Of a stretch of 64,000 nucleotides of DNA, positions 38,397 to 63,521 are shown piece after piece (the first letter of the stretch is position 1; each line of letters starts with the position of its first letter). Source of the DNA: Hydractinia symbiolongicarpus (lineage: Eukaryota > Cnidaria > Hydrozoa > Anthoathecata > Hydractiniidae); NCBI RefSeq assembly GCF_029227915.1, contig NC_079879.1, positions 15,190,001 through 15,254,000 of the forward strand. The letters run 5' to 3'. The translations under genes were made by a program, and so were the position numbers. The notes beneath the pieces are model-generated. The model saw only the letters and a list, made by a program, of their open reading frames with translations. It had not been told where the DNA came from and searched no databases.

Positions 38397-39122
38397 TCAA
38401 GGTATACAACAATCTATTTTCTGGGCTACTAGGCTGCCCATGCCAAAGAAAAATATTTTCCTACGCAGTAGGGCTTTGGTCTTTGATAAGCCCCGGTGAC
38501 CTTGATGTGCAAGTTTAATGGCAAGGTTCTGGTAACATCTTGGTAACACTATGCGATTGTCTTTAAGGATCAATCTCTGCTCTGAGTTGACAGTCAGTGT
38601 ATCTTTGATTTTCCTGTATTGTTTCAGCGATCGTGCATCTTCAGTATCCAACATTTGGTCTAGTTTGTACCAGGAGCGACCATTGGTATGATGTATGACT
38701 TTCTGTAAGAAAGGGTCGGCTCCTGTGGCGATTTTGATTTCTTCCAATGTAATTGCGATTGGGCTAGCGTTTGTGGCAATAAAGTTAACGTGTTCTTCGA
38801 TGTAGTTTGTTAAGTCGATTGACATACGTCCCGGATGTCTACTTAAATAGTCAGATATATTGTCTTGTGAAGTAACATATTCGGCGTTGAAGGTGTATTC
38901 TTGTAGACGTAAGACCATTCGTTCGTTTCGTGCAGGTGGTTTCGCTTTGGGGTTATTTAAGATGGTCACTAATGATTTGTTGTCATTGATAATTGTGAAA
39001 GGTCGTCCGAATAAGTACAGTCGGTTTCGTTCACATGCATATGTTGCACTAAGGCACTCCCGCTCTATTTGTGAGTACCTCATTTCCGTTTCGCTCAACG
39101 CTCTTGATGAATAGGTTATCAC
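38397..39122 (-). pseudogene. Ty3/gypsy RNase H and integrase zinc-finger region, damaged
   Basis: A frame of 241 residues begins inside RNase H (ITYSSRALSETEMRYSQ, then the DNKSL region at about 46-50 and PARNERMVLRLQEY) and continues through the linker ending DYLSRHPG into the HHCC zinc-binding domain of integrase (HQGHRGLSKTKALLRR at about 208-223). The early part of RNase H, with its first catalytic Asp, is absent. Overlap of the two frames at 39130-39160 suggests an internal deletion joined RT to the middle of RNase H. The frame ends in TGA exactly where the last zinc-ligand Cys is expected. The same frame stays readable beyond that stop to about 38340, where the satellite begins. Confidence 0.87.
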
Positions 39123-39129
39123 ACTAACG

Positions 39130-39936
39130 TCATTTTTCCCTTTCGTTTTCTGCAGTAAGATCGGTGAGATGCCGACAGGGCTGGTTTAAAATAAACCTCT
39201 TGAGGTAGTTTGTCATGCCTAAGAAACTTCTTACTGATTTTATGTCGTTTGGTCGGTCAGCGTTCTGCAGATCCGCAATTTTAGAAGTGCTAGGCTTCAT
39301 CCCTTCGCTAGAAAATTCGTATCCGTAGAATTCAATTGTAGGTTTATCGAAAATACATTTTGGTAAGTTTAATTTCAGCTTATTCTCAGCGAGGCGTTTA
39401 AACACGGTAGTCAGAATTTCATCAGCAATGTTGAGAGCGCCTGGTATGTCGGAAAGCAGTGTTCCCAATGTGTGTTGCAACCCTTCTGCCGCAGTATTAG
39501 CCCCGAATATTAAGCGTTTATATTGTTTAATTTTGTTTTCTGTTCTAAACGCTGTAACATATCTACATGATTCGTCTAACTCGAGTTGATGGAATGCAGC
39601 ATTTAGATCTAATTTCGAAAACTTTTTCGCTCCTTTCAATTTTACTAACAGATCTTCGACGGTTGGAGTGGGGTATCGTGTCCTAGTTATAGTCTTGTTG
39701 GCGCTACGCATATCTAAGCAAATGCGCAAATCATTTTTTCCTTTTGGTACAACGACAAGAGGATTTAACCAAAGCGTTGGTTGTCCTAATACGTCTTCTA
39801 TTATATCTAATTCCTCTAGTCTTTCTATTTCTTTCTGTGCTTTCTCTCTCAAACTCATCTCCAGCGCCTTTTGTCTCTTTTTTTTACTGAACGGCGAGAC
39901 GAAAAGACACTGGAATCGTAGGCCGGAATTCTGCAT
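39130..39936 (-). pseudogene. Ty3/gypsy reverse-transcriptase domain, damaged
   Basis: A frame of 268 residues covers the reverse-transcriptase fingers and palm. LRICLDMRSAN at about residues 70-80 and FSKLDLNAAFHQ at about 106-117 (first catalytic Asp at about 110) are conserved, and so is the RFLI-type downstream region SVRSFLGMTNYLKRF at about 234-248. Two defects would be disabling. The catalytic Asp pair of the family reads Asp-Glu (ADEI, about 171-174), and roughly a dozen residues expected directly after it are missing. The frame ends in a stop just before the RNase H frame begins. The Met chosen by the reading frame is arbitrary, because sequence upstream in the original polyprotein would have continued. 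Confidence 0.87.
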
Positions 39937-39984
39937 TTGATTGGTTGGGTATAATTACCGTAATTATGCGCATTTCTAAGAAAT

Positions 39985-40677
39985 GTATATATACCTACCT
40001 AAATGTCATTTTAGACCAAAATTGGTCCAAAAATTAAAATTACTTTATTTTTGACAAAATTTGGCACAGTTAACAAAAAAAGTATCCTGAACATTTTGGT
40101 GACATCAAAACTTTGTTTTTTTGCCACCTTAAATGTCATTTTAGGCCAAAATTGGTCCAAAAATTAAAACCACTTCATTTTCGGCTAAATCTGGCACAGT
40201 TAACAAATAAAGTATGCTGAAAATGATGATGGTACAAAAGTTTGATTTTTTGTCACCTAAATGTCATTTCAGGCTAAAATTTGTCCAAAAATTAAAACTA
40301 CTTTCTTCTCGACAAAAATTGGCACAGTTAATAAAAAAAATATGCTGAAAATGATGGTCACATCAAAATTTTCAATTTTTTGTCAACTAAATGCCGTTTA
40401 AGACCATAAACGTTTCAATTGCAAGACTTTCAACCATGAATGATAGGCTGTATTTTTTGTTAGTAATTTCTTTTAAAATGTGAGTTTATTATTACACGTT
40501 TTGTTGTGTTTGCGTTTGTTGTAAGATATATAATATCACTTGTGTGCTTTATCTTCAGAGCTTCATCCACCAAACCTTTTCTAATGTTTGGCACGATAAC
40601 ACAATGAATTAGCAGGTTGTCATCAAATATTTTGGTAGCGAGCGGAAATTCTTAAAGCCCCCAGGGCTTCTTGTTTT
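39985..40677. mobile_element. Non-coding element with internal 128-bp tandem repeats, copy 1
   Basis: Three tandem units of about 128 bp start near 40001, 40131 and 40259 with the shared word aaatgtcatttta and contain ggcacagttaa. They are followed by a unique tail (about 40390-40677) that recurs almost unchanged at 53588-53878. Near the right end is a small hairpin (aagccc at 40655-40660 pairing with gggctt at 40664-40669) shortly before the point where the two copies stop matching. There is no reading frame. Internal minisatellite plus a terminal hairpin resembles Helentron/DINE-type non-autonomous Helitrons, but no diagnostic Helitron end is seen, so class is uncertain. Confidence 0.75.
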
Positions 40678-43771: not shown

Positions 43772-43780
43772 CAGTGTGTT

Positions 43781-43811
43781 GAATTAACAGAAAGGCAGTC
43801 ATTGCCCCATT
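43781..43811 (+). repeat. Left terminal inverted repeat of the MULE
   Basis: The 31 bp starting gaattaacagaaaggcag match the complement of 49506-49536 except for A against G at the ninth base. The core ggcagtcattgcc is itself partly palindromic, a possible transposase binding site. The outer base G agrees with the common 5'-G of MULE ends. Confidence 0.9.
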
Positions 43812-44993
43812 TTTTAAATAACCTCTCAGATGAAGATATCGTTACACTCCGTTGTAAGTTATTATCAGACAACAAATATGGAATCAAGGATTCAAAGTCA
43901 TAGGCTTAAACATCAAAACAAACCCCACGTGCATGCGGGAAAATCATACCATCAAGGAAATTGAGTTAGCACATATTTGAAGCTAGTCCATTTTTTGAAA
44001 TATTAAAAATTATATATAAAACGTTTATTTACTTTGTGCTGGGTGCTTGTTCTCGGCTAAACTATTTGTTGTAGTTAGTTTGTGGAAAAATTAGTTATGG
44101 TAACAGAAAAAACTACAGGTGAGAAAAACTGTATTTTCTTTAGTTGTTTTGCCAAATGTTTTATCTTTTTTTCAATGAGTGTTTTCTTGTTTGTAGAAGA
44201 ATCAAGTTCGAACGTTATTGGGGAGAAGCTTTTATACAAAGCCATTATAAGGGAAACTAGGGAAGAATTAGGTAAGGTCTCTAAAATGTAATTTTTTACT
44301 TCATAGACACTGTCACAAAATGTTTTAGTCTTTTAAAAATATTTTTCACAAGGTTGCTTGAAGCAAAATATAAACAAAGCAAAGTACTCAATAATCGGTG
44401 AGTGAGTAAGATGAGTAAAGTATCCTCAATGTTAAAAAGTAATCGCTAAACTGTTTCCAATATACAGTATTATACACTTTCTTTTAGTTGACAGTTTTTC
44501 GGAAGATGAATGCAACACTGAGCTAGATAAAATATTTTCAGATGTTGAAAAAGAAGTTTCTAGTAAATTATGTATGCACTTCCAGCTACCTTTCGCATTT
44601 GTAATACGTCTAGAAAGTAGCGTCCTTGCGAGAAAATAAGTAAAAAAATTCTGAGTTTTTAGGCAAGGCACGTTTTTATTATTTTAGAGCAAAACTAAAA
44701 GATACAAGCGCAGAAGAGAAAAGAAGCTTCAAGCACTTCAAGATGAAGTTAAAATTACCCATGATGAAAGATCGGGTAAGTAAAAAAATACGATAAAGAT
44801 AAATGTTTTAAATGATAAATATTTTCCTTTTTTTCTAACCTTTTTACTCATGTTTTCAGATTCACCTGCCAAAACGCAAAGTGATGGAATTAATACGGAA
44901 TTCCCTGAAAAGGTCATCACAAAAAATGTAACCACCTTTCAATGTGATGAATGCGACGCAAACTATACACGCTAAAATAAGTTAAAAGCGCAT

Positions 44994-46307
44994 ATGTTGA
45001 AGAAACATAACACTACGTTAACTGACCAGGGTAAGCGTTCAAAATGTACATTCCCTGGTTGTGAAGAGACTTTTTACCACAAAAGTAGAATGATATCATA
45101 CCTAAACACATTCCATGGTACGAAGACAAACGTTCGTAACTTGGTATTTGAGGACGAACAGATGTTCATGGAATGGAAAGAAATAGAAGAATTAGATAAA
45201 CACATATATTTTTCAAAGCAAAGAGGGGATGGCGACTCTAAATTAACGAAATACGCTTATTACGTTTGCCAGCATGACGGGGACGGAAGATGGCATAGAG
45301 AAGAAAGTGAACCAGCTCGAAAAACAGAGAAAAAAATTAAACGCGGTCAGATTAAAACAGGACGCTTTTGCCCAGTTAGATTGACCTGTCACATGGACAA
45401 AGTTAATAAAGAAATTAGAGTAGAGTATATCACATCTCATAGTCACGCAGTCAATTTAGAAAATACTGTTTTTCAACCCATACCATCAACCATCCGCCGG
45501 GAAATAAAGGCAAAACTGTCTATTGGTATACCAGTTAACGAAGTATACAAGGAGTTACGTGACGGGATGGGTAACCGTAATACCAGGGAAAACGACTCAA
45601 AAATAACGCGGGTACATCTGGTCAGTAAGAGTAATGTTACTGACATAAAAAGACACATGAAATACGGTAGAAGGCTACACCCTGATGACAGCACATCAAC
45701 TCACTTGTTGGTGAAAAAATTGAAAATGGAAAATTACAACTGTATTATTGTGTATAAACCACAGGGACAGTCAGTTGCTACTGGGACAAAAATGTACGAT
45801 GATATCGATATAAAAACGGATCTCTTTGCAATCGGAATTCAAACAAGGGAACAGCTGGAAATGTTCATTAAGGGTGCAAACAAAGTGCATTGTATAGATG
45901 GCACCCACAGCACAAACAAGTATGAGTTCCCATTAACAAATGTGATCGTGCCGGATGAATTTAATAAAGGTTATCCGGTGGGTTGGCTGATATCCAATCG
46001 AAATGACGAATTAACTCTCCGGCCATTCTTAGAAGAAATAAAAAGCAGATGTCCTGACGACTTCACAGTTAACTGTTTGATGACAGACGATGATAATTCC
46101 GGATGGAACGCACATTCTGCTGTTTTTGGAAAAACTAAGGTCACATTCACTGAATCTGAACTGCGCGAACTCAAGAATATCGAACGTGGTTTTAGACCTG
46201 GTTGGCTACAAGATGAGATCATTACAGCCTATTTGTTTCACCTACGCTGTAAAAACACCGACATGATATATCTTGATCCGGCAGAGGTACTTGCTATAGT
46301 ACTATAA
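44994..46307 (+). CDS. Longest open part of the MULE gene: C2H2 finger, transposase, start of Ulp1 domain
   Basis: This uninterrupted frame of 437 residues starts at an ATG within the linker of zinc finger 1, in frame with the upstream exon but after its stop. The finger CTFPGCEETF (about residues 19-28) has both Cys ligands and the last His (FHG, about 40-42) but Tyr where the first His should be. Residues about 300-375 (HCIDGTHSTNKYEFPLTNV, then PVGWLISNRND, then LMTDDDN) match the catalytic half of MULE transposases, which cut and join transposon ends with a DDE-type active site. From about residue 405 (FRPGWLQDEIITAYLFHL) it changes to the opening of a C48/Ulp1 protease. The rest of the transposase, with the third acid, is absent between them. 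If translated it would be a truncated protein. An internal start here is doubtful. Confidence 0.7.
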   Translation: MLKKHNTTLTDQGKRSKCTFPGCEETFYHKSRMISYLNTFHGTKTNVRNLVFEDEQMFMEWKEIEELDKHIYFSKQRGDGDSKLTKYAYYVCQHDGDGRWHREESEPARKTEKKIKRGQIKTGRFCPVRLTCHMDKVNKEIRVEYITSHSHAVNLENTVFQPIPSTIRREIKAKLSIGIPVNEVYKELRDGMGNRNTRENDSKITRVHLVSKSNVTDIKRHMKYGRRLHPDDSTSTHLLVKKLKMENYNCIIVYKPQGQSVATGTKMYDDIDIKTDLFAIGIQTREQLEMFIKGANKVHCIDGTHSTNKYEFPLTNVIVPDEFNKGYPVGWLISNRNDELTLRPFLEEIKSRCPDDFTVNCLMTDDDNSGWNAHSAVFGKTKVTFTESELRELKNIERGFRPGWLQDEIITAYLFHLRCKNTDMIYLDPAEVLAIVL

Positions 46308-46314
46308 TAATAAC

Positions 46315-46407
46315 TTGCTATAATAATAACAGAAGAACATGTGATGCAGAAAGATGCACGCAGCTGTGGTGTATACTGTTGCTTCTATGCGTCTAAGATA
46401 ATGTCAG
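46315..46407 (+). pseudogene. Ulp1-type protease catalytic-Cys segment
   Basis: Reading in the same frame as the preceding ORF, past three consecutive TAA codons, gives QKDARSCGVYCCFYASKIMSG. This matches the conserved end of C48 cysteine proteases, where Gln, Asp and the nucleophile Cys lie in a Q-x-D-x(2-3)-C-G-V pattern. A gtgttt donor at 46408 and an acceptor before 46543 join it in phase to GKLTDKCDPMGFRRQ, a plausible family C-terminus. The stops sit in a short local duplication (two copies of a ttgctata...ataataac unit), so they may have arisen with that duplication. Confidence 0.65.
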
Positions 46408-46765
46408 GTGTTTCATTTATAGGATGTTTATGTCAAAAATTTTATTTAGTACTGACTTGTCTAAGCGAAATTAAGAAATGAAGACGTATAATTTAAATAC
46501 CTTCGAAAGTTTTGTTAATAAAATTTTATGACTTTCGTTAAGGTGGCAAGCTAACTGACAAATGCGATCCAATGGGCTTTAGAAGACAAATGTAAAGGAC
46601 GATTGTCGGAAATTGTATTCCATCTGGACGTACATGGAAGAATATTCAGAAAGAACATTCAATGTGTCGGGTAAGTGCATTTATATTCATATTTATGAGT
46701 AGCTACACAAGCAATCAATTGTCGTAATGAGTTCGAACTTTTATGATTCTTCTTCTTGATTTCAG

Positions 46766-46853
46766 GCATGTCTAAAAAAACCCAAAAGACAACGAAATTG
46801 ACTGGGTGCAATGTATACGATTTCCGCAATGGTATCATTGCAAATGCGCTTAG
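46766..46853 (+). pseudogene. PHD-finger-like exon, decayed
   Basis: After a consensus acceptor (ttgatttcag) one frame reads KNPKDNEIDWVQCIRFPQWYHCKCA and ends in TAG. The W-V-Q-C ... W-Y-H-x-x-C arrangement is the hallmark second half of a PHD zinc finger. The expected Cys before WYH is Phe, and an upstream Cys position is a TAA, so the finger is broken. The preceding exon (46543-46670) ends with IQCVG in the matching phase, which would supply the first Cys, but a frame change within that exon is needed. PHD fingers commonly read histone tails. Confidence 0.5.
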
Positions 46854-49505
46854 TTTACGGCGGAACAAGCCGATTTGGCAGTCAACTTCCGTTGCTGATG
46901 ACTTTATCTGTTATTTCTAGTTATATCTAGGGACCTTACATTATTTTTAATATTTTTAAATGTTTTTTAGGTCATCATCATTTTGTTGCTTAAAGACAAT
47001 TAATTCTGATATATATCACACCCACATCTCGGTGACGGTGTCTTTGTTACGTGGTGTCATTCATAAAGAGTAAGCCAATGACATAAATTTTTAGGATTTA
47101 CGTACAGGGCGCTTTGGTAACATTCATAAGTGCAATAAATGCACACATAAAATTTGGTACTTATTACAAAATACCACTGGGTTTGTTTACAAAAGAGAAC
47201 AGCTTCGACGTTGTTTGAATTGTTCTTACAGGTAGCTTAGCTAGCCTATAGCTAGATTTAGGATTATTCTAGCCTTTATTACTTAATACTAGGTATAATA
47301 GGCCAAGTTTGAATATTTAACTTTTTGGCCCTGGCTAGCTAGACTAAGTATATGAAAGGACAAGGCTGAGCTTTTTAGCTGGGTTAAAAGTCAAAACTTA
47401 AAAGGAAAATTAAATCACAGTTTTTAAAATTATATTATCCATATATGAGAACACCTGCAGGAAAATTCATTGTTTATCAAGTTATCCCATATGGGTAATA
47501 TGGAAGATTTTTTCATGTGAATTACTTTTACATTAACAAAAATTAAAATTTTTAAGATAAACTTTTGCAATTTTGTCATTTATTAGTTTTAAAATTTCTC
47601 ACTGGAAATTTTGAAGGTTTGAAACCCATGTCCCACAGTAACTTTTTCATCCTTATCCTAATGTCATTACATAAGCTATGCAACAACTTTTGCAGGAAAA
47701 TAAAAACACATCAGAAAAAAAGGTTGTTATTAAAATATTATAAATTAATTTCAAACCAATTAGTCCCTGCAGCCATTTTGGTGTAAGCGGTGTGAAAAGC
47801 TATACTAAGTAAAAGTCCTATTACTTCAGTAAAAATTGAAATAATGACTTGAAACTTGGTATTATATGTTTTTAGACCAGTTTGATGAAATGAACCCAAA
47901 ATTTTTTTTTACTACTATCATAGTTTCTGAGTTCCTGAATTTAGCCATTTTTGGAGACTCCGATAAACTGTTTTTGACAGCATATCAATTTTGACAAGCC
48001 ATGTGTACAGAAAACATTCAAAGTGATTCTCAGGATTAAAAATAATTCAAAGAGATATAATGTGTCCCAGGTTTAGGACCAAATATCTTATCCAGCTCAG
48101 AGATAGTGGGAATGTGTATATATACAAAGTGGTTAAAAAGTTATTATTTTTTTCACTGGGATCTGCAACACGTTTACTTGCACTAATTGCTCAGCCTAGT
48201 GCCACTCACAATTAATTTTTGAATATCCACAGGAACTTTTTATGTAAAATGAAAAATGCTAAACAACTGTATTTGCTTTGCAGAAGTATCAATAGGATTC
48301 ATCGTAAGTCCTGTGAATGTTGGTTTATGAAAAATATACTGTATCTTTAATGCAATAAGTGCTCCACTGGATTTGTAACACATTACACGAAGTGTCCTCC
48401 GTGTGACACAGTTTACCCTTTACTGAGTGTTAACCTGGACAGAGACTTTAGGTCTTCCCGCTCCAAGCGAATATTACTTCTGGCTATCACTACTCTCTCA
48501 AATTTTGTTATTTCATAAAAGAAACCGTTAGGTTAAAATTTATTTATGGAAAATAGGTTCCCCTTCGATAAAAGAAACCTGAACATTTGCAGAAATTTAT
48601 TTATGCAATACAGGTTTCTGTTTGTTGCGACAATCTATTTAACCAACATGCAATACCTTACATACCTAACTAGCTAGCTATATACTCAAGTCATGACTGT
48701 CCACTGTTATGGGAGGTCCAAATAGCTAGCTAGCTATCTTTATTTAAAATGAAAGAATGCCTTGAAAAATCTTTTGTGTAGCTAGCTACATAAAAATAAT
48801 ATATTTAGCTCTTGTACTTTATCACGTCATTGTTTAATAACAAATGTGCCCCTGGAGTGCTAGCATGGTACTAGCTAGGTAGCTAAAAATCACAAAATAA
48901 ATATTATCCAGATGCGACCATCTTTCATCATCAGACATCAGAAAGGCGTTTCTGTTCTTTACTTCTCATTGTGGGGTTCCTCAAATTCTTGTGTATCTAA
49001 TGAAAAAAAAATTTACTAAGACTTTCTTAGTACCAACCGCGTCTCTTTCACAAGTTTCAGCGCTGGCCAATATGACGGACAACGTCGAGGAACCCTGGGT
49101 AATTTTGAAAAAATGTGGTTCTGCCTTATGATTTTCAGTTTTTTGCTGCTGATATCAGCATATTTTAGCACTCGAGTGCCACACCTCCGCATATAGGAGT
49201 TAATTATCTTTACCTGGAAATAAATCAAAATAAAATAAAATGATCTACCAACTATCTAGTTAAACTTTTTAAAACACAAGATAACACAAAATACTTTGTT
49301 GTTTTTATATAAAAACCTATGGGAGTGCGGTGAAAAGAGAGATTCGTCTTATTATTATAAGAAGAAAAAATTAACTTGATTGTAAATATTCCAATTCCCT
49401 TTTTTCTGTTTTTCTTACTACGCGCTACGCACGCATTTGTTTAAGGGCCCTAAAGCGCATCTGGCTAAGCCCACGGTGCGTGCGTCCAAAAAAAATTAAA
49501 AAGAG
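46854..49505. other. Non-coding right half of the MULE
   Basis: This AT-rich stretch contains no recognised gene. A possible poly(A) signal (aataaa, 47134-47139) lies in the loop of a gtgca/tgcac hairpin. CTAG-rich tracts occur at about 47226-47345 and 48665-48890. At 49072 an ATG opens a 19-codon frame in a slightly more GC-rich patch (48970-49190) that could be a captured promoter or first exon, but nothing confirms it. Confidence 0.55.
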
Positions 49506-49536
49506 AATGGGGCAATGACTGCCTTTCCGTTAATTC
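49506..49536 (-). repeat. Right terminal inverted repeat of the MULE
   Basis: This is the complement of the left end, ending ccgttaattc at 49536. It is followed at once by cagtgtgtt (49537-49545), the second copy of the 9-bp target duplication. Confidence 0.9.
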
Positions 49537-49614
49537 CAGTGTGTTTGCGGCGGCCATATTTATTTTCTTGTTCTGTCTGGATTCCTCCACCGTTATTATA
49601 TAAAACTCTGCGAA

Positions 49615-53000: not shown

Positions 53001-56000
53001 TTTTCTACAAAATTTGGCACAGTTAACAAAAAAAGTATGCTTAACATGATGGTGACATCAAAATTTTGATTTCTTGTTACCTAAATGTCATTCTAGGCCA
53101 AAATTGGTCCAAAAATTAAAACTACTTTATTTTTGACAAATTTGGGCACAATTAACAAAAAAGTATGTTGAACATGATGGTGACATCAAAATTTTGGTTT
53201 TTTGCCACCTTAAATGTCATTTTAGGCCAAAATTGGTCCAAATATTAAAACTACTTCATTTTCAACAAAAATTGGCAAAGTTAACAAAAAAAGTATGCTG
53301 AACATAATGGTGACATTAAAATTTTGATTTTTGTTACCTAAATGTCATTTTAGGCCAAAATTGGTCCAAAAATTAAAACCACTTCATTTTCAGCTAAATC
53401 TGGCACAGTTAACAAATAAAGTATGCTGAAAATGATGATGGTACAAAAGTTTGATTTTTTGTCACCTAAATGTCATTTCAGGCCAAAATTTATCCAAAAA
53501 TTAAAACTGTTTATTTTCGACAAAAATTGACACAGTTAATAAAATAAGTATGCTGAAAATGATGGTCACATCAAAATTTCTTGTCAACTAATGCCGTTTA
53601 AGACCATAAACGTTTCAATCGCAAGACTTTCAACCATGAATGATAGGCTATATTTTTTGTTAGCAATTTCTTTTAAAATGTGAGTTTATTATGACACGTT
53701 TCGTTTTGTTTGCGTTTGTTGTAAGATATAATGTCACTGGTGTGCTTTATCTTCAGAGGTTTATGCACCAAACCTCTTCGAATGTTTGGCACAATAATAC
53801 AACGAATTAGCAGGTTTTCATAGATATTTTGGTAACGCGCGGAAATTCTTAGAGCCCCCAGGGCTTCTTGTTTTTTTATAAAATAGGATAAAAATGCGAC
53901 TTTTTTCCAACAACACAATCCTCATCATTTGTCTTCCAGCTGAATGTGCTAAAAAGGTCAAATATAATTGTAAATGTTTGTGTTTATCACTTTGGAAATG
54001 AACTGTGATATTAGCATATTTTGTAACAATAACGTAATCACAACCAACTTTGTAAAAAACGATACCATTGAATTTCTTGTATCGCTTTTCTTTTGTTTGT
54101 TTTTATTTGATCAATTAAAAATCACTTGTTTCACTTTGACTTTCATTTATGCTTTTTTGAGAAAAAGTTTCATTCTACAAGCGAGCAACACTAACAATAT
54201 CAAGCTATATAAAATATTCAAAAATGTCTTCTTAGCGTCATAAAACCTTTGCTCCTTCAAAAAAAAAAAAAAAATGTGTTTTAACTCTCCGGGCAAGTGA
54301 AGATTGAAAATAAAAAATAATCCGCTAATTGAACAAAAGTGTAAGTCAAAGAAAATAATGGATGTTTTATCCAACAATAGCGAATACGACTCAGACAATT
54401 CTGTTATCATATCATTTTTTTTTAATCTCTATTCCATCAGATTTTGTAACATATTATATTTTTCCTTTTAGTTTATTTTTCACTTTGCACATCTCTCTTC
54501 TTGTGAATATGTTTTAAGTGCGAATATGAGCAGACACGCGCGTTATACAGAAGTTGTTAAAAACATCCGTAGTGACCATTTAACTATACTAAAGTGATGA
54601 TATTTTTAAAAATATTTAAAGCTCTTTTTCCCAATGTTCATTTTTTGTGTTAGTACTGCTAGCCTTTTCATCTTCATATACAAAACTATAAAAGGTACAA
54701 GGTGGAGGGTGAGCGGCTTTTAAAGATAGATGTTATATCTAAGAACAATTTTAAATTTATTTCATAAGTGTGAACAGATCTCGAGTTATGACGTATTTTT
54801 TAGCAAATTAAGGTTTGTAATTCAATAAAAAAAGTTAATTGAAGATATCTTCAAAACGAAAAATAATTACACTATAATTTTCAGATCGTTTTTAGACCAA
54901 TGTGTTGTGATTACAAAACAGTGAACACCAATCATGAAAAACTAAAAGTTTTGTAAATGGAGATGCATTTAGTAAAGGAGGGGTCATTTTTTAGCGTCTT
55001 TAAACGTCTTCAATTTTATTTCGTTTCCAATAATTTTTATATCATCTTTTAGGCAATTTTATAAACTTTCAGAAAATATACAATAATATTACAACTTCCA
55101 TGTAATTTTAATAGAAGCTATTTTAAAACATCACACTCTTTCCCTTCTCACACCTTAACCAAATAAAAAAAATAGTTTGTCGTCACACAGACTGAAAATG
55201 TTAACAAAAATACATATTTGGATTTCTATTTCAACCTCATGCTTGTTTCGAGAAATCTTCTAAAGGATCATTCTAAAAAAACGTTTCTTCCTTCACATGA
55301 AACATGTCACATTTGTCTTATAATTACAGGCTTTAATCTTAGATGCTTTCTGAAAATCATGCTCTTTTTTAGCGATAAGTGATCTCAAATAAACAAAACT
55401 TTAGCATACAGAAATGAAACAAAAGAGTCATTCAGCAAACCGCAACATAAACTGTGCAAACATCAATGGCTCGACTTGAAATTTGACGTTTTCTTAAACA
55501 TCTTTTGCGCCATGGCCATAACGGTGTTACAACTGCACATGTATATTATGTTTTACGCCATCAACACATATTTTAAATGTTTTCCACTTTCTCACAAAAA
55601 TGCAGAAGTTTTATAGAAATTTAAATACAATTTAAATGGAAGATTTGTGAGTTGTATCTCCTGTTCTTTTATACCTCCATGGATAGAAATTTAAAATTTT
55701 ACATGTGTAGTTCGAAAATTTACAAAAAAAGAAAACAATAATCCTCATCGTTATAAAAACACAAAAAGGACAGCTGGGTGGCTAAAGAACTGTGGAGCAA
55801 CTATGTACTAAAATTATCGCCTCGTAAACTCTTCAAAAAATGTTCTCAAAACAGTACATTGCAAAAAAAACCTGTTTGTTATTTGCAAGAGCTAAAAAAT
55901 ATAATTTTCAAGATTTGAAAAAAGGTGTTCAAAAGTTGAAAAATACAAAAATTACAAACATAGATTTTTTGACTTTCTTAGGGAATAAACTTTAAATTCT

Positions 56001-62460: not shown

Positions 62461-63521
62461 CTTTGTAGTATTCAGTAATACACTGTAATACTTTGTAGTA
62501 TTCAGTAATACACTGTAACACCTTGTATTATTCGGTAATACACTGTAATACTTTGTAGTATTCAGTAATACACTGTAATACCCTGTAGTATTCAGTAATA
62601 CACTGTAATACCTTGTAGTATTCAGTAATACACTGTAATACCTTGTAGTATTCAGTAATACACTGTAATACTTTGTAGCATTCAGTAATACACTGTAATA
62701 CTTTGTAGTATTCAGTAATACACTGTAATACTTTGTAGCATTCAGTAATACACTGTAATACTTTGTAGCATTCAGTAATACACTGTAATACTTTGTAGTA
62801 TTCAGTAATACACTGTAATACTTTGTAGCATTCAGTAATACACTGTAATACTTTGTAGCGTTCAGTAATACACTGTAATACTTTGTAGTATTCAGTAATA
62901 CACTGTAATACTTTGTAGCATTCAGTAATACACTGTATTACCTTGTAGTATTCAGTAATACACTGTAATACCTTGTAGTATTCGGTAATAGACTGTAATA
63001 TCCTGTAGTATTCAGTAATACACTGTAATACTTTGTAGTATTCAGAAATACACTGTAATACCTTGTAGTATTCGGTAATACACTGTAATACCTTGTAGTA
63101 TTCGGTAATACACTGTAATACCCTGTAGTATTCAGTAATACACAGTAATACCTTGTAGTATTCGGTAATACACTGTAATACCCTGTAGCATTCAGTAATA
63201 CACAGTAATACCTTGTAGTATTCGGTAATACACTGTAATACTTTGTAGTATTCAGTAATACACTGTAATACCTTGTAGTATTCGGTAATACACTGTAATA
63301 CCCTGTAGTATTCCGTAATACACTGTAATACCTTGTAGTATTCGGTAATACACTGTAATACCCTGTAGTATTCAGTAATACACTGTAATACTTTGTAGCA
63401 TTCGGTAATGCACTGTAATACCTTGTAGTATTCAGTAATACACTGTAATACTTAGTAATATACTGTAATACCTTGTAGTATTCAGTAATACACTGTAATA
63501 CTTTGTAGTAGTCAGTAATAC
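62461..63521. repeat. 30-bp minisatellite, about 35 units
   Basis: The unit is ctttgtagtattcagtaata followed by cactgtaata. Thirty-three regular units run from 62461 to 63450, then a 20-bp partial unit at 63451-63470, then nearly two more. Variation is concentrated at a few positions (ctttg/ccttg/ccctg, agta/agca and cagt/cggt), and the variant units are clustered. Each unit holds a gtatt/aatac hairpin around cagt. It lies between intergenic DNA and a P-element remnant. Confidence 0.97.

Follow-up and report, generated by a model that had tools for sequence, protein, structure and literature searches.

A decayed copy of a young Mutator-like transposon family in Hydractinia symbiolongicarpus, whose full-length members appear to encode one transposase with Ulp1 and PHD domains

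We analyzed a 64,000-nt stretch of the genome of the laboratory model hydroid Hydractinia symbiolongicarpus (positions 15190001 to 15254000 of contig C5; hereafter, the window, in whose numbering coordinates are given), and in particular a 5.76-kb element that is bounded by terminal inverted repeats (TIRs) and holds the remnants of a gene of the Mutator-like element (MULE) type. Judging from sequence comparison, the element is very probably a defunct member of a young MULE family with TIRs in Hydractinia, the full-length members of which encode a single multidomain transposase of approximately 1,240 amino acids.

The initial annotation of the window had reported a complete transposon with 31-bp inverted ends, one mismatch between them, and a perfect 9-bp flanking duplication, and the delimitation proved exact: the two TIRs agree at 30 of 31 positions, and CAGTGTGTT lies directly outside both, a flank match with a chance of approximately 1e-5 at the local base composition. 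The layout of the window copy is as follows.

43772-43780: left 9-bp target-site duplication, CAGTGTGTT
43781-43811, plus strand: left 31-bp TIR, one base off the form commonest in the genome
44097-44118, plus strand: equivalent of exon 1 (start codon region), from comparison with the full-length copy on contig C14
44197-44271, plus strand: equivalent of exon 2, splice strings located
44488-44562, plus strand: equivalent of exon 3, splice strings located
44688-44775, plus strand: equivalent of exon 4, splice strings located
44860-46139, plus strand: first part of exon 5, with the C2H2 fingers, a C-C-H-H module, and the MULE RNase H-like domain
44976-46307, plus strand: 443-codon open frame (437 amino acids from the first Met, P0001), in which the MULE part is fused to the start of Ulp1 across a deletion
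46139-46140: deletion junction, at which approximately 1.62 kb of the full-length element is absent (third catalytic residue, SWIM, linker)
46140-46299, plus strand: start of the Ulp1 domain (GWLQDE region)
46300-46327: filler of approximately 28 bp, replacing approximately 256 bp that code for the Ulp1 His/Asp region
46328-46407, plus strand: Ulp1 fragment with the Gln/Cys region (MQKDARSCGVY)
46543-46670, plus strand: equivalent of exon 7, covering the C terminus of the Ulp1 part and interrupted by an in-frame stop
46766-46898, plus strand: equivalent of exon 8, PHD finger, with a broken frame and an early stop
46990-46993 and 49210-49213: left copy (TTAA) and right copy (TTAC) of the duplication flanking the nested element
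46994-49209: nested TTAA-type element, 2,216 bp
49210-49505, plus strand: 3' subterminal part of the MULE
49506-49536, minus strand: right 31-bp TIR
49537-49545: right 9-bp target-site duplication, CAGTGTGTT

The MULE transposase segment recognized by the initial annotation was borne out by Pfam, in which the frame at 44976-46307 matched MULE (PF10551, E value of 1.6e-7) and ZSWIM1-3_RNaseH-like (PF21056, E value of 2e-10), both over the cut-offs. The description of the transposon as complete, instead, had to be given up on account of two deletions, stop codons, a frame break, and the 2,216-bp nested element. Measured against the copy on C14 (L011), the deletions of approximately 1.62 kb and 256 bp cost the copy its third catalytic residue, its SWIM motif and linker, and the His and Asp of Ulp1; the part of exon 5 at 44860-46139 reaches just past the region of the second catalytic aspartate. 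Furthermore, a stop codon at 44973-44975 lies in the C2H2 exon directly upstream of the long frame, and 2.2 kb of the 5.76 kb belong to the unrelated nested element. The window pieces of Ulp1 (47 amino acids, E value of 0.17) and PHD (25 amino acids, E value of 0.0018 with a PHD variant model) both fall under the Pfam cut-offs; since they are fragments, their assignment is secure only in the exons of the full-length relative. When used as a protein query, the Ulp1-PHD fragments returned only the window protein among 56 candidates, and the window frame found a single match in the PDB, at an E value of 0.076, which we treated as chance. To judge by its sequence, the window copy is a decayed relic with two deletions and one interruption that cannot make the multidomain protein; it is non-autonomous, and any movement would depend on a relative acting on its ends.

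The relatives of the window copy were sought in the H. symbiolongicarpus assembly (480.9 Mb in 76 contigs), where the element matches at least 85 places (40 scored of 906 candidates; match counts are lower bounds). The outer parts of the element match about a dozen loci, the window included, of which 11 were retrieved for comparison, and these form a group separate from the matches to the inner part at 46994-49209. A scan of the whole genome with the 31-bp end, as the initial annotation had proposed, allowed up to three mismatches and gave 25 sites, compared to none for the reversed control; 20 of these sites form 10 element pairs, with a 9-bp duplication that is perfect in seven, agrees at 8/9 positions in one and at 7/9 in another, and is missing from one. 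The 11 retrieved loci include five full-length relatives, on different contigs and with 5,328 to 5,354 bp between their ends, and their target-site duplications read TATTTTGTA, GCACAAGGT/GCACAACGT, CTGGAGTTC, TGCCCGCTA, and GGAAAATGG. The order of domains and the ends, which the initial annotation had proposed to check in relatives together with the 9-bp duplications, are shared by all five full-length copies.

The remaining sites belong to less regular members. A copy on C8 possesses the full set of parts plus an insertion, with flanks agreeing at 7/9 positions, and shorter copies with both ends measure 2,305, 1,609, and 1,495 bp, two of the three with a perfect duplication and the third with no matching one. 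The two short copies with a perfect duplication (L015 and L017) have insertion points only two bases from each other, in what looks like one common flanking repeat. Among the five single TIR sites, two come from copies that have lost one end (L018 and L019), two continue into 3' subterminal sequence that is 83 to 87% like that of the full-length copies, and the fifth has a decayed relative of the gene (61%) approximately 1 kb away. The full-length copies are 98.4 to 99.1% identical to each other, and 147 of the 169 variable gap-free columns set a single copy apart from the rest, the pattern that a recent burst would leave. Identity of the window copy to them is approximately 96% over its first 2.36 kb and 87 to 99% in the remaining blocks. 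A scan of viral contigs with the family alignment matched 24 stretches, none of which was confirmed.

The gene of copy L011 was modeled with eight exons separated by seven GT-AG introns; the predicted exons join into a protein of 1,239 amino acids without an internal stop. The order of its parts is two C2H2 fingers, a C-C-H-H module, MULE, a SWIM motif, a basic linker, Ulp1, and a C-terminal PHD finger, with the SWIM motif and Ulp1 in one exon and one frame. The profile searches suggested by the initial annotation, run on the separate exons, returned zf-C2H2 (1.1e-5), MULE PF10551 (4.4e-13), Peptidase_C48 PF02902 (3.1e-14), and PHD PF00628 (8.2e-7), all over cut-off. The claim that C2H2, transposase, Ulp1, and PHD modules sit in one multi-intron gene is upheld by the five full-length relatives, whose ends agree, and by the exon that the SWIM motif and Ulp1 share. 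Two further copies (L009 and L010) keep every GT and AG at the splice columns of L011.

As regards the individual domains, the full-length copy presents the candidate D-D-E motifs CIDGTH, MTDDDN, and FVESFH, whose acidic residues we take to be catalytic. In the alignment of the Ulp1 part with chains of SENP1 (E value of 4.3e-6), the residues in register include His, Asp, Gln, and Cys, presumably the active-site residues of the Ulp1/SENP proteases, and this predicted domain conforms to the His-Asp-Gln-Cys pattern of family C48. By eye, the L011 protein ends after the seventh ligand of the C4HC3 arrangement of its PHD finger. Against solved structures, the MULE exon matched C2H2 proteins only, the first being CTCF (E value of 2.7e-5), and FLYWCH, frequent in Phantom, gave no match in the long exon at E values up to 1.

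The exon with SWIM, linker, and Ulp1 was used as a query for more distant relatives, giving 23 matches in the genome, among which those outside the family include one locus on C7 and one on C1. At a locus on C7 (L039), similarity to MULE, SWIM, Ulp1, and PHD follows in order on one strand at 34 to 60% identity, with stops in the MULE part. At a locus on C1 (L038), the end of the linker and Ulp1 (34%) are followed by PHD (46%), and no MULE match occurs within the retrieved stretch; an adjoining frame there reads by eye like a reverse transcriptase. As a protein query, the exon of the full-length copy gave four matches among 5,897 candidates, two of them new and from other sequence sources: P0036 (44%), with linker and Ulp1 in one frame, and P0037 (36%), with SWIM, linker, and the start of Ulp1. 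P0036 in turn matched SENP7 (E value of 2.7e-4). In the four-row alignment of the Ulp1 parts (A4), His, Asp, and Cys are kept in every row and Gln in three, being replaced by Glu on C7.

These divergent loci bear on a first alternative, namely, that Ulp1 and PHD are a fragment of a captured host gene, carried as a passenger in the manner of Pack-MULEs and without function for the element. MULEs do capture host genes (PMC6446971), and transposons unrelated to each other repeatedly carry Ulp1 and OTU domains (PMC2836005); however, the persistence of the fusion at 34 to 60% identity in other loci and sources, together with a Ulp1 frame continuous with SWIM, suggests a component that the transposase has long retained, and the conservation of the presumed active-site positions in A4 points the same way. 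We therefore regard such a passenger as improbable.

Still less credit is due to a composite locus, in which a MULE, a Ulp1 gene, and a PHD fragment would have been joined by unrelated insertions. The window taken alone might suggest it, with its nested unrelated element, its deletions, and the weak scores of its Ulp1 and PHD pieces, and the initial annotation had itself allowed for chance association, were the ends elsewhere to flank unrelated sequence only or no second locus to link the domains. Instead, the same parts lie in the same order between the same ends in five full-length copies on different contigs, on which we rejected this explanation; SWIM and Ulp1 share one exon, and parts of the arrangement recur on C7, on C1, and in P0036 and P0037. 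It is just as hard to see in the window copy a host gene, whether functional or domesticated, as the cataloguing of P0001 as a predicted 437-amino-acid protein might imply, given its two deletions, the stop upstream in the C2H2 exon, the broken PHD frame, the nested insertion, and its close identity to full-length mobile copies.

The interpretation as a dead member of a family with one multidomain transposase is thus by far the most probable, even though several observations weigh against it. Only one of the five full-length copies has an unbroken gene, the other four (L009, L010, L012, and L013) showing stops or frame breaks in long exons; at the splice columns of the L011 alignment, L012 is without two donors and L013 without three donors and one acceptor. 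No Pfam SWIM match was obtained at E values up to 1, the motif being called by eye as CxC...CxH. The ratio of nonsynonymous to synonymous polymorphism (pN/pS) among the copies, 0.65 for MULE, 0.53 for SWIM-linker, and 0.48 for Ulp1, is only mildly below 1, in regions that include some intron bases and over ten copy pairs that are non-independent. Finally, the roles of the Ulp1 and PHD domains are ones that we infer.

In the mechanism that we propose by analogy with such modules in other proteins, the N-terminal zinc modules would bind the 31-bp ends, and the RNase H-fold DDE domain would cut and paste the element with a 9-bp stagger. It is possible to hypothesize that the Ulp1 domain cleaves SUMO or a related tag off the transposase itself or off local factors of silencing or repair, while the PHD finger may contact histone tails.

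The nested element has ends reading AGAYAATTAAYTC and is inserted in the window MULE with TTAA on its left and TTAC on its right. The uninterrupted insertion site, GCTTAACTGG, is present in all five full-length copies, none of which has the nested element there. Its longest stop-free stretch is 76 codons, and on its own it matches more than 20 other loci in the genome, the longer matches being approximately 82 to 94% identical; two of these copies were examined, one with TTAA on both sides and the other without.

A further group of MULE relatives was found on contig C12, where three neighboring long stop-free frames lie within positions 16640680 to 16658886 and are 28 to 33% identical to the MULE exon. 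In 50 mononucleotide shuffles of the region, the longest stop-free stretch was 152 codons.

L046:181-2712, minus strand of C12: 844-codon frame
L046:4460-8758, minus strand of C12: 1,433-codon frame
L047:4680-6887, minus strand of C12: 736-codon frame

The three frames retain C2H2-like, FAR1-like, MULE-fold, and SWIM modules in the order of the MULE family; the 1,433-codon frame has a PHD-like end as well, whereas the 844- and 736-codon frames end soon after SWIM. In Pfam, the 736-codon frame alone exceeded the cut-offs for C2H2 and MULE; MULE was matched at 0.011 in the 1,433-codon frame, the end of which matched PHD at 0.0015, under cut-off, no MULE match was obtained for the 844-codon frame, and FAR1 remained under cut-off in all three. 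With hhalign, the Ulp1 alignment matched the C-terminal part of the 1,433-codon frame with a probability of 10.6% and an E value of 0.0029, and a degenerate Ulp1 stretch is probable there. The 736-codon frame probably has an upstream exon, because no Met occurs before codon 179. In the 15-row tree, the C12 frames fall on one side with 100/100 support, on long branches whose placement the program called unsure.

Aligned with the family (A3), the first catalytic Asp is kept in the 1,433- and 736-codon frames and is Glu in the 844-codon frame; the equivalent of MTDDDN reads MTENSC in the 1,433-codon frame, MTTLDD in the 844-codon frame, and MTDVTS in the 736-codon frame; and the third catalytic Glu is replaced by Asp, Asn, and Asp, respectively. 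By this alignment, a loss of the putative triad is clear only for the 844-codon frame, those of the other two being altered. The retrieved stretches flanking the frames (L042 to L045) gave no match to the MULE family, the C12 stretches examined showed no pair of TIR-like ends accompanied by a duplication, and the 736-codon frame is enclosed by a 21-nt inverted repeat (90%), at whose flanks no duplication was seen. Whether the C12 frames are host genes domesticated from the MULE-Ulp1-PHD lineage is, in our estimation, evenly balanced, and we hold it there because two of the three keep an acidic third residue, one of them together with the first two. They may act as DNA- and chromatin-binding regulators, possibly of the parent transposons. 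According to a 2023 survey (PMC10027918), FHY3-type MULE-derived factors were not found in two other cnidarians, Nematostella and Hydra. If domesticated, the C12 frames would be a cnidarian example of an entire transposase chassis converted to host genes.

Other parts of the window are occupied by repeats. Positions 242-38338 are taken up by a long satellite array, interrupted at approximately 35.9 to 37.0 kb, whose repeat unit measures 182 bp and which shows a period of 364 bp as well; it has approximately 47% GC, compared to approximately 33% in most of the remaining window, and as a guess, it is possibly of the centromere type. Downstream, at 38397-39954 on the minus strand, two open frames read by eye like the reverse transcriptase and RNase H of a Gypsy-type retrotransposon. 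The stretches at 39997-40393 and 53001-53579, 13 kb apart, apparently share one tandem unit of 128 to 130 bp, within longer stretches that are approximately 90% alike, and a 30-bp minisatellite of 35.6 copies at 62463-63521 is open in several minus-strand frames.

In comparison with known systems, the 9-bp duplication, the TIRs around a MULE gene, and the D-D-E motifs (the third being deleted in the window copy) place the element in the Mutator superfamily, for which target-site duplications of 8 to 11 bp are given (PMC6446971). The initial annotation had considered that the architecture might be undescribed, a suggestion overtaken by a report of 2010: Bao, Kapitonov, and Jurka described Mutator transposons that encode Ulp1 in hydra, lancelet, and plants, and according to the legend of their Figure 1e, Ginger1 and Mutator transposases are aligned there in their Ulp1 and PHD domains (PMC2836005). 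The MuDR-type Hydra transposons with Ulp1 (Bao and Jurka, Repbase Reports 2008, as cited in PMC2836005) resemble the Hydractinia element, by their description, in the hydrozoan host and in the combination of a Mutator transposase with Ulp1. The Hydra proteins P0017, P0018, and P0020 are 40 to 49% identical to the window gene, with C2H2-like fingers just under cut-off in P0017 (E value of 1.4e-4) and a SWIM motif recognizable by eye in P0020. For the cnidarian group MuDR-6_HM, an OTU domain is given, and the word ulp1 does not occur in that paper (PMC6446971). In the open-licence literature, outside which Repbase Reports lies, we found no description of the Hydractinia family or of the C12 frames.

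The Kaonashi elements of Arabidopsis (KI-MULEs) and the Ulp1-MULEs of melon and rice likewise combine the Mutator superfamily with a Ulp1-like protease. However, KI-MULEs are non-TIR elements with the ULP gene in reverse orientation to mudrA (PMC2528002), whereas the Hydractinia element has TIRs and carries Ulp1 on the same strand and in the same gene, so that neither Kaonashi feature is found in it. Ginger1-9_HM shares with it a hydrozoan host and a C-terminal Ulp1 plus PHD on a cut-and-paste transposase (PMC2836005, Table 1); different from the MULE domain and 9-bp duplication of Hydractinia, Ginger1 has a Gypsy-type integrase and a 4-bp duplication of the CCGG type (PMC2836005), and the element is thus not a Ginger1.

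The RNase H-like plus SWIM chassis, reflected in the matches to PF21056 and PF10551, is shared by the window element with genes of the ZSWIM1/3 and FHY3/FAR1 types. The ZSWIM genes are derived from MULEs, and genes of both types belong to the host, whereas the window element is mobile; it is these gene classes that the C12 frames resemble. FHY3 is also MULE derived (PMC10027918).

We conclude that the Hydractinia element belongs to an already known kind, the animal Mutators with Ulp1 and PHD known from Hydra. For this kind, our analysis provides a copy-by-copy record of an animal Mutator transposase that combines, within a single protein, a PHD finger with a SUMO-protease-like domain, a fusion that persists across divergent relatives. 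It has been proposed that transposon-encoded Ulp1 and OTU domains contribute actively to transposition (PMC2836005), and the Hydractinia family makes this proposal testable.

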